Source of the DNA: Opitutales bacterium | Lineage (GTDB): Bacteria; Verrucomicrobiota; Verrucomicrobiia; Opitutales; Seribacteraceae | Assembly: GCA_029251885.1 (NCBI GenBank) | Contig: JAQXCL010000147.1 | Coordinates: forward strand, 1-53,367 | DNA length: 53,367 nucleotides | Reading direction: 5' to 3' | Shown: positions 4,896-23,653 of the stretch, piece by piece | How positions within the stretch are numbered: the stretch's first letter is position 1 | How the letters are laid out: each line of letters opens with the position of its first letter | The notes under the pieces: model-generated | Seen by the model: the letters and a program-made list of their open reading frames with translations, nothing else | The model's database searches: none | What the model was told of the DNA's origin: nothing | Made by a program: the position numbers and the translations under genes

Positions 4896-5527
4896 TCCGA
4901 CTCCTCCTTTTTGCTGGTTTCTTGAATGGTGATCGTCCCACCAATCATGTCGTGCAGGCAACGCCGTTGTCGGTTGAGGTAGCAAAAAAGGAAATTCATT
5001 AGTCCGGGAAGAAGGAATGGGGTAATTAGAATGAGTGAACTTAATCCTTTGCCTGCGGCCCGAAAGAATTGCCTGAAAGGAGAAGGTGGGAGATCAGTTC
5101 CATCCATTCTTACCGTGCGCAAGCCAAAGGTTGCTTTGCCCAGGCTTTTTCCAAAAAAGAAGCGCTCTCCGATGAAAAAATATAAGATGGGCAAAAAGCA
5201 GGCCCATACAACCATGGCCATGAGCATCTCATAGGTTTCAGGAGAAAGTCTGGATTGATCAATGAATTGAGACATTTCTTCTGAATTCATCTGATTTTCC
5301 TGGGCAAGTAGAGTGGCTTGTTGGAGCAAGCTTTTAAATTCATCCTGAGTATTGTTGCCCCAGAAATTGGGCAGAAAATGAGCCATTAATTGAAGAAGCA
5401 AGATGATCAAAATAAAATCCATCGCAAAAGCGATTATTCGTTTGAGCAAAGGAGCTGGCTCGAGGCTGGCGGATGGGATTTTCTCTTGTTCCTCGTCATC
5501 GAGGGTACGGGTGGGGGATTCGTTCAT
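4892..5527 (-). CDS. RDD family membrane protein
   Basis: This 211-residue integral membrane protein has an RDD domain: an R...AF..D signature in KRIIAFAMDFI opening the first membrane helix, a later FFGKSLGKATFGLRTVR segment, and the closing CLHDMIGGT motif. Three to four hydrophobic helices are visible. RDD proteins are small membrane proteins, some linked to Na+/H+ exchange or osmotic tolerance, but most have no assigned function, and none can be assigned here. The start codon overlaps the folD stop as TAATG, and the stop overlaps the proC GTG start, so it is embedded in the operon. Confidence 0.85.
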   Translation of the reverse strand: MNESPTRTLDDEEQEKIPSASLEPAPLLKRIIAFAMDFILIILLLQLMAHFLPNFWGNNTQDEFKSLLQQATLLAQENQMNSEEMSQFIDQSRLSPETYEMLMAMVVWACFLPILYFFIGERFFFGKSLGKATFGLRTVRMDGTDLPPSPFRQFFRAAGKGLSSLILITPFLLPGLMNFLFCYLNRQRRCLHDMIGGTITIQETSKKEESE

Positions 5528-6405
5528 TAAGGCTGCTTCAAGCTTTGTTCAAAGGCTTGGACCGTGTTAGCCATGAGCATGGCGACGGTCATCGGGCCAA
5601 CCCCTCCGGGTACCGGTGTGATATGAGAGGTTTTTGGGGCCACTTGTTCAAAATCAACATCACCCACCAACCGGTAACCGGATTTACGGGAGCTATCAGC
5701 CACTCGATTGATTCCCACATCAATTACGGCACATCCAGGCTTGATCATATCTGCAGTTACAAAGTAAGGCTTTCCTATAGCAGCGATGAGTATATCCGCC
5801 TCCCGGGTAAGGGCTGGCAGGTTGTGTGTCCTGGAATGGCAAAAAGTGACCGTTGCATTGCCAGGTATCGAACGGTTAAGCAGCAACATTCCAATAGGTT
5901 TTCCCACAATTAAACTGCGGCCCAATACGACCACCCGTTTACCTGCTGTTTCAATGCCTGTACGCTTAATCAGTTCAATAATTCCAGCGGGTGTACAGGA
6001 TCGGAAAGCATCGGATTGTTCCTGGCAAAGTTTTCCCAAGTTTACTGCATTAAATCCATCCACATCCTTGGCGGGTGATACCCGGTTGAATATTTGAACA
6101 TCATTAATATGAGGGGGTAGGGGTGCTTGCACCAAGATGCCGTGTACAGAGATATCCCCGTTTAAACGATCAATTTCCTCAAGCAATTGACTTTCAGATA
6201 TGGTAGAGGGAAATACGAGTAACCGGGCATCGATACCTAAGGAAGCTGCCGTTTTCTCCTTTTTCCTAACATAAGAGATGGACGCAGGATCATCACCTAC
6301 ACGCACAAAGGTAACGCTGGGCTTCCCACATTCAAAGGCAGAAACTTTGCCTCTTAACTCATCCAATACTTCCTTGGCAATTTGGTTGCCGTCGATCAAT
6401 TCCAT
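5527..6405 (-). CDS. folD: Bifunctional methylenetetrahydrofolate dehydrogenase / methenyltetrahydrofolate cyclohydrolase
   Basis: This 292-residue cytoplasmic enzyme interconverts 5,10-methylene-, methenyl- and 10-formyl-THF, supplying one-carbon units for purines and formyl-Met. Family motifs are visible in order: SYVRKKEKTAASLGI with the catalytic Lys, VQAPLPPHI, PAKDVDGF, the NADP loop VLGRSLIVGKPIGMLL, and PVPGGVGPMTVAMLM near the C-terminus. Length is normal. It overlaps the downstream RDD gene by one base and starts 35 bp after the upstream hypothetical gene. It pairs functionally with purT, which uses formate directly. Confidence 0.96.
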   Translation of the reverse strand: MELIDGNQIAKEVLDELRGKVSAFECGKPSVTFVRVGDDPASISYVRKKEKTAASLGIDARLLVFPSTISESQLLEEIDRLNGDISVHGILVQAPLPPHINDVQIFNRVSPAKDVDGFNAVNLGKLCQEQSDAFRSCTPAGIIELIKRTGIETAGKRVVVLGRSLIVGKPIGMLLLNRSIPGNATVTFCHSRTHNLPALTREADILIAAIGKPYFVTADMIKPGCAVIDVGINRVADSSRKSGYRLVGDVDFEQVAPKTSHITPVPGGVGPMTVAMLMANTVQAFEQSLKQP

Positions 6406-6440
6406 GACCCGGTAAAATTAGTGAAAGGTAAAGGGTTGGA

Positions 6441-7052
6441 TCAATTCGAAAGACGCAGCACTCGTGCCCGTATGACCAATTTGTCGGACCCTGCCTTAAT
6501 CGGTTCGAGCATGCCGAGCACATTGATCTGCTGGTCAGTAAATTGCTGGGGGTCGACGGCTTTTAATTGATCAATATCAATAAATGCGAGTCTTTTACCC
6601 TTTGAGTTTTCCAACTGGTAAGGAAAGTCGTAAGCGAAACCGAGTTTGCGGGGTTTAAAAACAAGAGTGCCTTCAAAATTTCGAACAATCCGTGTAGCTG
6701 GCTTGTTTTTGGGAGGATCTAAGGGAAGGGTGCTTGGGGCGGGCTTTACTTGCTCGGTCTCTAAGGGATCAAGTTCGTCAATTCTCGAGCTTCCAGAATC
6801 ATTTGAATTGCTTGATGATTCAGTTTGTTGCACGGGTTCATTCGAGATGTCAACGGATGCTTGAATAGGTTTTGCATTCCACCTTTCTCTTCCTACTACC
6901 ACGGGTTCAATCTCAGGCGCACCCGCATTGAATGCCTGACCTAGGCTGGGGGAACCCCCTTGGGCGGGTTGTCCAAATAAAGAAGAAAAAGAAATCAGGG
7001 AAACCGCCATTCCCCCGATGATTTTGGTGATGTATAAATTAAAAATTCCCAT
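6441..7052 (-). CDS. Exported protein of unknown function
   Basis: The protein starts MGIFNLYITKI and has a hydrophobic N-terminal segment ending near FGQPA that looks like a signal peptide. A polar, Ser/Pro/Glu-rich linker follows, then a compact C-terminal domain of about 85 residues from FEGTLVFKPRKLGFAYDF to the end. That part could be a small beta-rich, OB-like fold, but I do not recognise the family. The track start at 7094 would overlap the rluB-like gene and push the hydrophobic segment inward, so I prefer ATG 7052. It lies between a pseudouridine synthase gene and folD in the same direction and is probably co-transcribed. The product is likely periplasmic. Confidence 0.65.
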   Translation of the reverse strand: MGIFNLYITKIIGGMAVSLISFSSLFGQPAQGGSPSLGQAFNAGAPEIEPVVVGRERWNAKPIQASVDISNEPVQQTESSSNSNDSGSSRIDELDPLETEQVKPAPSTLPLDPPKNKPATRIVRNFEGTLVFKPRKLGFAYDFPYQLENSKGKRLAFIDIDQLKAVDPQQFTDQQINVLGMLEPIKAGSDKLVIRARVLRLSN

Positions 7053-21672: not shown

Positions 21673-21770
21673 GGGCAGAAAGGGTAGGGAACTAATATGC
21701 AAACAAGGTAATGTTCTTATTGCAAGTTCGAATAGGAGTGGATCTACTTTTGGGATATTTAATTTTGGTT

Positions 21771-22571
21771 ATGGATACTTTGGCTTTTTGGTTGCCTCTT
21801 TTCTTACTTTTTCTTTCCGCCCTAGTTGGGGCCCTAATCAAGAGAAGATCTTGCGATCATTGCCTGAAAAGATTTAGCGGCAATAAAGTCCTGCTGCCCA
21901 TCGGCACTAAAGATTGGATATGTGGTAAATTGGAAGTTTTTGCTCAGGGACTGGAGATAATTAGCCCTGAGAAGAACCAAATTCCCTGCGGTTTTGTAAA
22001 TTCGCGAATTATTCCTTCAAAAGAAGTGTCAGAAATTAGCTTATTGATTCGACAAGCTCCTGAACCCGATACCCGGGCCGGTGTGGAATGGAGAAAAGAG
22101 AGAGAGATGCTCCTAAATCCTACCCTGAGAATACGTTTAAAAAGATTTACCTTAAATTCTTACAATATGTTAAGAGATTCTTTCGGGCAGGCCCTCAAAA
22201 CAATCATCGGTACGGTAAGCAAAGAAACGAGGTTGGGGAAAGCAAAAGGTGCCGATGGCCGATTCCATGAAATGCAGTCAAATTTAACCGGAATGGTGCC
22301 CAATGCATGGGAGCCAATTCTCGAAAAATATCGAGGTAAGTTAGTTGCCATCGAAAGAATGTCAGAGTCCGAAGAAATTTATGAATCCGGTATATTGGAT
22401 GATTATTCTGATAAATATTTGCTATTGCGGGATGTCAATTTGATCGATCCGGCGATCAAAAATGCGTTGGGGATACTCGGTGGATCGACTGATTTGTGCT
22501 ACGATGTTCTTTATTCACGCACGCAGACCTTATTAAGATATTCCGTTAAGTCCCAATCCATGCAGGATTAG
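21771..22571 (+). CDS. Membrane-anchored protein of unknown function
   Basis: From ATG 21771 the protein has an N-terminal hydrophobic helix (MDTLAFWLPLFLLFLSALVGALI) followed by basic KRR and a CDHC pair, then about 230 soluble residues, probably cytoplasmic. Segments such as GSTDLCYDVLYSRTQTLLRYSVK near the end do not match a family I know. The track start at 21711 adds a second hydrophobic stretch and overlaps the divergent lipoprotein's upstream region; either start is possible. The gene ends about 45 bp before the candidate 6S RNA. Confidence 0.65.
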   Translation: MDTLAFWLPLFLLFLSALVGALIKRRSCDHCLKRFSGNKVLLPIGTKDWICGKLEVFAQGLEIISPEKNQIPCGFVNSRIIPSKEVSEISLLIRQAPEPDTRAGVEWRKEREMLLNPTLRIRLKRFTLNSYNMLRDSFGQALKTIIGTVSKETRLGKAKGADGRFHEMQSNLTGMVPNAWEPILEKYRGKLVAIERMSESEEIYESGILDDYSDKYLLLRDVNLIDPAIKNALGILGGSTDLCYDVLYSRTQTLLRYSVKSQSMQD

Positions 22572-22579
22572 AACACAAC

Positions 22580-22607
22580 TTGACCAAATCCTGAAATCAA
22601 TTAGGTT
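22580..22607 (+). promoter_or_regulatory. Promoter of the candidate 6S RNA
   Basis: TTGACC (-35, 22580-22585) and TAGGTT (-10, 22602-22607) lie 16 nt apart and place transcription start near 22613-22616, right at the base of the long closing stem. Confidence 0.55.
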
Positions 22608-22613
22608 ATTGAG

Positions 22614-22803
22614 TTCGACTTCTGCATCGTTCGAGAAGTTTCATTCGTTCTTTTCCTTACCCCTAATTATTCGGGAACCTATCGACAATCGTTTGCAGTC
22701 AGGCCGTAAATCGGAAGACTAAGAGCGACGCGAGGGTACCCACCTGGACCTAGAAGGTCATATAACTTATGAATGCGATGAACGGCGAACGTGGAAGTCA
22801 CCA
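22614..22803 (+). ncRNA. ssrS: Candidate 6S RNA
   Basis: An intergenic stretch of about 185 nt can fold into one long rod. Closing stem: GACTTC (22617-22622) with GAAGTC (22794-22799), then CGTTCG (22628-22633) with CGAACG (22786-22791), then CATTC with GAATG. A large central bubble follows; its 3' side holds a small hairpin GACCT-AGA-AGGTC. The apical arm begins with GGGAACC (22673-22679) against GGTACCC (22735-22741) and continues TCG/CGA, TCGTTT/AGAGCGA, AGTC/GACT and CCG/CGG. Size, closing stem, bubble with 3' hairpin, and apical arm are those of 6S RNA, the RNA that mimics an open promoter and binds sigma-70 RNA polymerase. A promoter fits the start. No typical terminator is seen at the 3' end. 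Confidence 0.75.
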
Positions 22804-22813
22804 CTTTAAATCA

Positions 22814-23653
22814 TTAAGTAATTCCCAGTAGGGAAGTTCCTAATCGTTGGGCTTCCCTAATTATTTCTTTTTGATTTAATAAAAGTACTGTACCCGCCTC
22901 AATGGCGGCATTTTTAATGCCTGCACTTTCCATTGCCTCTAGGGTTTGTAACCCAAACACAGGAACATCAAAGCGTGTATCTTGTTTTGGTTTTCCAAGC
23001 TTTACGAACAGGCAATTCTTAGCACCAAACTTTCCAGCTCGTTCGAGCATTGCGTTGGTTCCTTCAAAGGCTTCCACCGCCAGCACAGTTCCCCGACTTA
23101 CCACCACGCCCTGACCGACATCGAGGCGGGCATTTTCACGGGCAATTTCAATACCATGAGCAAGGTGTTCAGGATCGATCTTTTCTTTTCCTTTAACCAT
23201 TACGCCCTCGTCCGCCAGGTCCTCATCCATAAAGACCCGGGCATCAAGTAGATGAACGCCCGCTTTTTCGATCTCTTCCCCAATGGCTCCAAATATAGTC
23301 TCTGCATTTTTGCGATCGAGCCCCGCCAGCATGCGGATAGCTTTGAGATCCGGATGCAAACCCCGAAACAGTTTACCGGGGGTCACTTGTCCCGCCATGA
23401 CCGCATAGCCAGCATTGAAATTTTTTAATTCCTTGAGAAGTTTTCCAACCTGTCCGACTTTGACTGCTGACCTTTGGTTTACGGGGAAGGATGAAATGAG
23501 ACCGGGCGAAGTTTCTCCTCCCAATTCAATTAGGCAAACACGAATGCCTGCTTTACGTGCTCTTTCTGCGAGTAAAATCGGATAGCTGCCCTGACCCGCA
23601 ATAAGAGCGAGTGGTCGACTTACATCAAAGTTCTCAGGCAGAAAGCGAGACAT
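22814..23653 (-). CDS. lpxI: UDP-2,3-diacylglucosamine diphosphatase LpxI
   Basis: This 279-residue enzyme hydrolyses UDP-2,3-diacylglucosamine to lipid X and UMP, an early lipid A step, in place of LpxH. Motifs of the LpxI (DUF1009) family are visible: LIAGQGSYPILLAERAR at the N-terminus, AVMAGQVTPGKLF, GIEIARENARLDVGQGVVV, AVEAFEGTNAML, and the C-terminal DTRFDVPVFGLQTLEAMESAG. Length is standard. It lies 12 bp downstream of leuS on the same strand and probably shares its transcript. Presence of lpxI implies an LPS-type outer membrane. Confidence 0.93.
   Translation of the reverse strand: MSRFLPENFDVSRPLALIAGQGSYPILLAERARKAGIRVCLIELGGETSPGLISSFPVNQRSAVKVGQVGKLLKELKNFNAGYAVMAGQVTPGKLFRGLHPDLKAIRMLAGLDRKNAETIFGAIGEEIEKAGVHLLDARVFMDEDLADEGVMVKGKEKIDPEHLAHGIEIARENARLDVGQGVVVSRGTVLAVEAFEGTNAMLERAGKFGAKNCLFVKLGKPKQDTRFDVPVFGLQTLEAMESAGIKNAAIEAGTVLLLNQKEIIREAQRLGTSLLGIT

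Follow-up and report, generated by a model that had tools for sequence, protein, structure and literature searches.

The element at positions 22616–22801 (+ strand) of the window, the whole 53,367-nt stretch of DNA that was analysed, is a genuine 6S RNA gene (an ssrS homologue) and an ordinary representative of the known family in marine Opitutales. Rfam scanning of the window revealed a match to the 6S/SsrS covariance model RF00013 on the + strand only, with 62.5 bits (E = 4.7e-10) against a gathering score of 46.4 bits, and the alignment covered positions 1–187 of the 187 in the model, that is, its full length. By the model ends the RNA is 186 nt long, within the ~180–200 nt typical of 6S RNA; the only other Rfam matches within the window were three tRNAs, and a genome search found a single 6S copy. 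The first-pass annotation had proposed a 6S RNA candidate of ~185 nt at 22614–22803, and this was borne out by the RF00013 match together with covariation among relatives. Folding of the single sequence gave a modest signal, with a minimum free energy of −55.7 kcal/mol versus −46.5 on average for shuffled sequences (z = −2.1; 4 of 200 shuffles were equally good). Because this energy is just somewhat below that of shuffled sequence, folding alone could not settle the assignment, which was decided by the covariance match and the covariation in relatives. The gene, its fold, its conservation and its conserved −35 box were all observed here. We are close to certain that the best explanation of the whole is an Opitutales 6S RNA gene with its own predicted sigma70-type promoter, whose product would form a rod that serves as an RNA polymerase decoy and is released through pRNA synthesis.

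We then aligned 46 sequences of the order Opitutales (alignment A1) and derived a consensus structure of 37 pairs with RNAalifold. Two-sided changes were found in 24 of the 37 pairs versus 17.4 in shuffles, and the cells with a two-sided change numbered 223 versus 75, the extensive compensation that the first-pass annotation had suggested looking for in related genomes. Standard pairs filled 95.4% of pair cells (82.8% in shuffles) and the covariation score was 0.453 (0.221 in shuffles); slid registers reached 39–49% and at most 0.137, respectively, a comparison that favours the consensus since it was derived from A1 itself, while the Rfam match is independent. None of 500 shuffles reached any of the observed covariation values. 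These compensatory changes support the rod fold (closing stem, central bubble and apical arm), most strongly in the outer closing helix and the apical arm. Several stretches in A1 are invariant or nearly so across the order: C7–T8, GGG 58–60, GCCG 88–91, CGGAAG 97–102, CCCAC 124–128 and CGGC 168–171. This conservation bears on the suggestion that the locus is a 6S pseudogene that has decayed or fallen silent, in favour of which a weak −10 hexamer (TAGGTT) and the lack of an evident terminator could be cited. However, compensatory changes have preserved its helices throughout the order, and copies from the same genus are almost identical in the bubble motifs and the −35 box; we consider a pseudogene extremely improbable.

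Every sequence piece from which the first-pass annotation had built the fold was found on the + strand, although two of its pairings need qualification. The outer closing helix joins GACTTCTGC (22617–22625) to GTGGAAGTC (22791–22799) through 9 pairs, 7 of them with two-sided changes and 95.2% paired, and includes GACTTC (22617–22622) and GAAGTC (22794–22799). For the inner closing helix, the proposed letters CGTTCG and CGAACG are present, but this register is not retained in relatives and was rejected; TCGT(T)CG/CGGCGA is favoured instead, in which TCGTTCG (22627–22633) pairs with CGGCGA (22783–22788) in 98.9% of cases. Below the central bubble, CATTCGT (22642–22648) forms 7 pairs with ATGAATG (22769–22775), including the CATTC (22642–22646) and GAATG (22771–22775) noticed earlier. 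A helix of 6–12 bp occupies roughly the same spot in most family members, with TTGGTTCT/AGAACCAG-like sequences in place of the CATTCGT/ATGAATG of the window copy elsewhere in the family, the 5' side being of the TTGGTTCT type in other genera. The apical arm (22673–22741) is closed by GGGAACC (22673–22679) and GGTACCC (22735–22741), and 14 of the 20 pairs in its helices 3–7 showed two-sided changes. Folding, alignment and covariation place a hairpin on the 3' side of the central bubble (22742–22759), as ACCU/AGGU or GACCU/AGGUC. The letters of the latter, GACCT (22747–22751) and AGGTC (22755–22759), are there as first read, but this pairing competes with the canonical ACCU/AGGU, the form found across the order.

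The 5' strand of the central bubble (22649–22672, + strand), UUUUCCUUACCCCUAAUUAUU, is the putative pRNA template, its role being taken from knowledge of 6S RNA and its place from conservation. It contains a UCCU tract (22654–22657) whose conservation in the order is 90% or more; by folding and A1, the tract is unpaired and lies at the expected place for a pRNA template. E. coli pRNA synthesis starts at U44. By analogy with this start, the pRNA would be copied from the bubble 5' strand, probably starting opposite the U/C in UUUUCCUUAC and beginning roughly AAGGAAAA. RNAalifold on the family also offered a local hairpin in this strand, GAGAAG/CUUACUC, which was rejected: it is without covariation and the window copy breaks one of its pairs (A–C). 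We regard it as quite unlikely that the 5' bubble strand of this Opitutales family hides the pRNA template by pairing GAGAAG with CUU-A-CUC, and covariation cannot test a helix that is almost invariant in the family; if such a switch were real, 6S release would be regulated differently in this family.

A putative sigma70-type promoter, TTGACC (22580–22585), a 16-nt spacer and TAGGTT (22602–22607), lies on the + strand at 22580–22607, 7–9 nt before the RNA start. The first-pass annotation had judged it suitably placed, and we found TTGACC at −35 in every one of the 28 family members whose upstream DNA is available, with the −10 box less conserved. A strict consensus promoter scan did not list the site, as its −10 hexamer TAGGTT is weak. 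A terminator scan found no clear intrinsic terminator directly after 6S in the window, where the closing stem is not followed by a T-run. A hairpin at ~22829–22854 was considered as the 6S terminator and rejected, having an imperfect T-rich tail and sitting inside the 3' end of lpxI. In many relatives a T-run stands directly behind the closing stem (L005, L007, L015, L017, L018, L020, L023, L028 and L030), so that in these the stem may also serve for intrinsic termination.

The RNA starts 44 nt past a same-strand gene (21711–22571) that had no match in a Pfam search, and converges with lpxI (22814–23653, − strand), whose identity, already proposed from the sequence, was confirmed by the Pfam domains LpxI_N and LpxI_C. 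The order lipoprotein-like gene, upstream gene, 6S, lpxI, leuS is kept in most of the bacterial family. The 27 named lpxI relatives are all labelled Opitutales, Opitutia, Opitutae or Verrucomicrobia, which assigns the window to Opitutales (Verrucomicrobiota). A model built on the order found 6S in 20 of these 27 loci, with lpxI on the other strand in every case; in several of the remaining loci the contig stops soon after lpxI. In one g4 relative (L057), a 632-aa ORF at 4926–6824 separates lpxI from 6S, and the spacing between the two exceeds 1 kb in several other g4 loci too. The position away from ygfA, pointed out in the first-pass annotation, is real but unremarkable: 6S gene neighbourhoods vary outside gammaproteobacteria, and the upstream gene–6S–lpxI order is kept in most of the family. 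The short distance to the same-strand upstream gene could be cited for a chance match or for a piece of an mRNA 3' UTR or attenuator. The E value of 4.7e-10 argues against chance, and a 6S with its own conserved −35 box argues against a piece of mRNA, as does genus g3 together with most other families of the order, where neither the upstream gene nor lpxI was found beside 6S. We give such readings next to no weight: since neither neighbour accompanies it in those groups, 6S behaves like a gene in its own right, separate from the mRNAs on either side.

RF00013 matched 45 of 57 related genomes (44 above the cut-off); in a selection from the whole phylum, 104 of 195 genomes had a match. The 12 relatives without a match include several incomplete or broken assemblies, among them G001, whose contig ends inside lpxI; two others of the 12, G041 (93% complete) and G053 (95%), are not accounted for in this way. 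Our own model R1, run control-less on genomes without an Rfam match and with part of the candidates scored, found nothing, which is not evidence of absence. Four contigs end a few to some 60 bases from 6S (L014, L016, L019 and L038, in G034, G005, G003 and G010), where the conserved 6S sequence probably breaks metagenome assemblies, and contigs breaking near the gene may explain some apparent absences. In the phylum groups f23/g44 and f31/g56, RF00013 matches of 28–45 bits fell below the gathering score, and many other phylum genomes had no match; divergent 6S RNAs may escape the Rfam model in both. In genome bin JAQWWZ01 (cluster3_bin.19; G015) the 6S gene occurs twice, both times accompanied by an lpxI and an upstream gene (L021/L033 on C60 and C30; L057/L053). 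The likeness of one set to genus g1 and of the other to g4 points to a mixed bin and not to a duplication.

In the general 6S mechanism, an open-promoter-like bubble binds the sigma70 holoenzyme and release follows pRNA synthesis (PMC5721685). Most probably the Opitutales RNA acts like those of E. coli and B. subtilis, binding the sigma70 holoenzyme via its bubble and leaving it after pRNA synthesis; polymerase binding, its timing and the pRNA with its start are what membership in the 6S family would predict. Its transcription would begin at its own putative sigma70-type promoter immediately behind the upstream gene, and the folded rod would imitate an open promoter and occupy the housekeeping holoenzyme; stationary phase or starvation is the most probable time for this. 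Once nucleotides return, the polymerase would copy the bubble 5' strand into a short pRNA, and the 6S RNA would be released. A literature search found no dedicated or experimental study of 6S RNA in Verrucomicrobiota, and the present work gives an uncultured Opitutales lineage a well-supported 6S annotation with a conserved −35 box and neighbourhood. Since 6S RNA is already described in most bacterial phyla, among which it is widespread (PMC5721685), the Opitutales gene fills in a known distribution and does not change its understanding.

Among polymerase-binding small RNAs, Ms1 comes into question, which is described as related in structure to 6S RNA and reported from Actinobacteria (PMC9130861). 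Ms1 binds core RNA polymerase, and the notion that the window encodes a similarly shaped Ms1-like RNA instead of a true 6S has hardly any likelihood, as the sequence scores above the gathering threshold of RF00013 along the whole length of that 6S model. The 6S RNA of the window resembles E. coli ssrS and B. subtilis bsrA/bsrB (RF00013) in its full-length covariance match, length, closing stem and central bubble, and shares with the family the GGGA...CCCACC start of the apical arm, the 3' bubble hairpin and, as predicted, a sigma70-type promoter. It differs from known 6S genes in standing beside lpxI and the upstream gene instead of ygfA, and in a lineage-specific lower helix beside the bubble, whose register changes from genus to genus.
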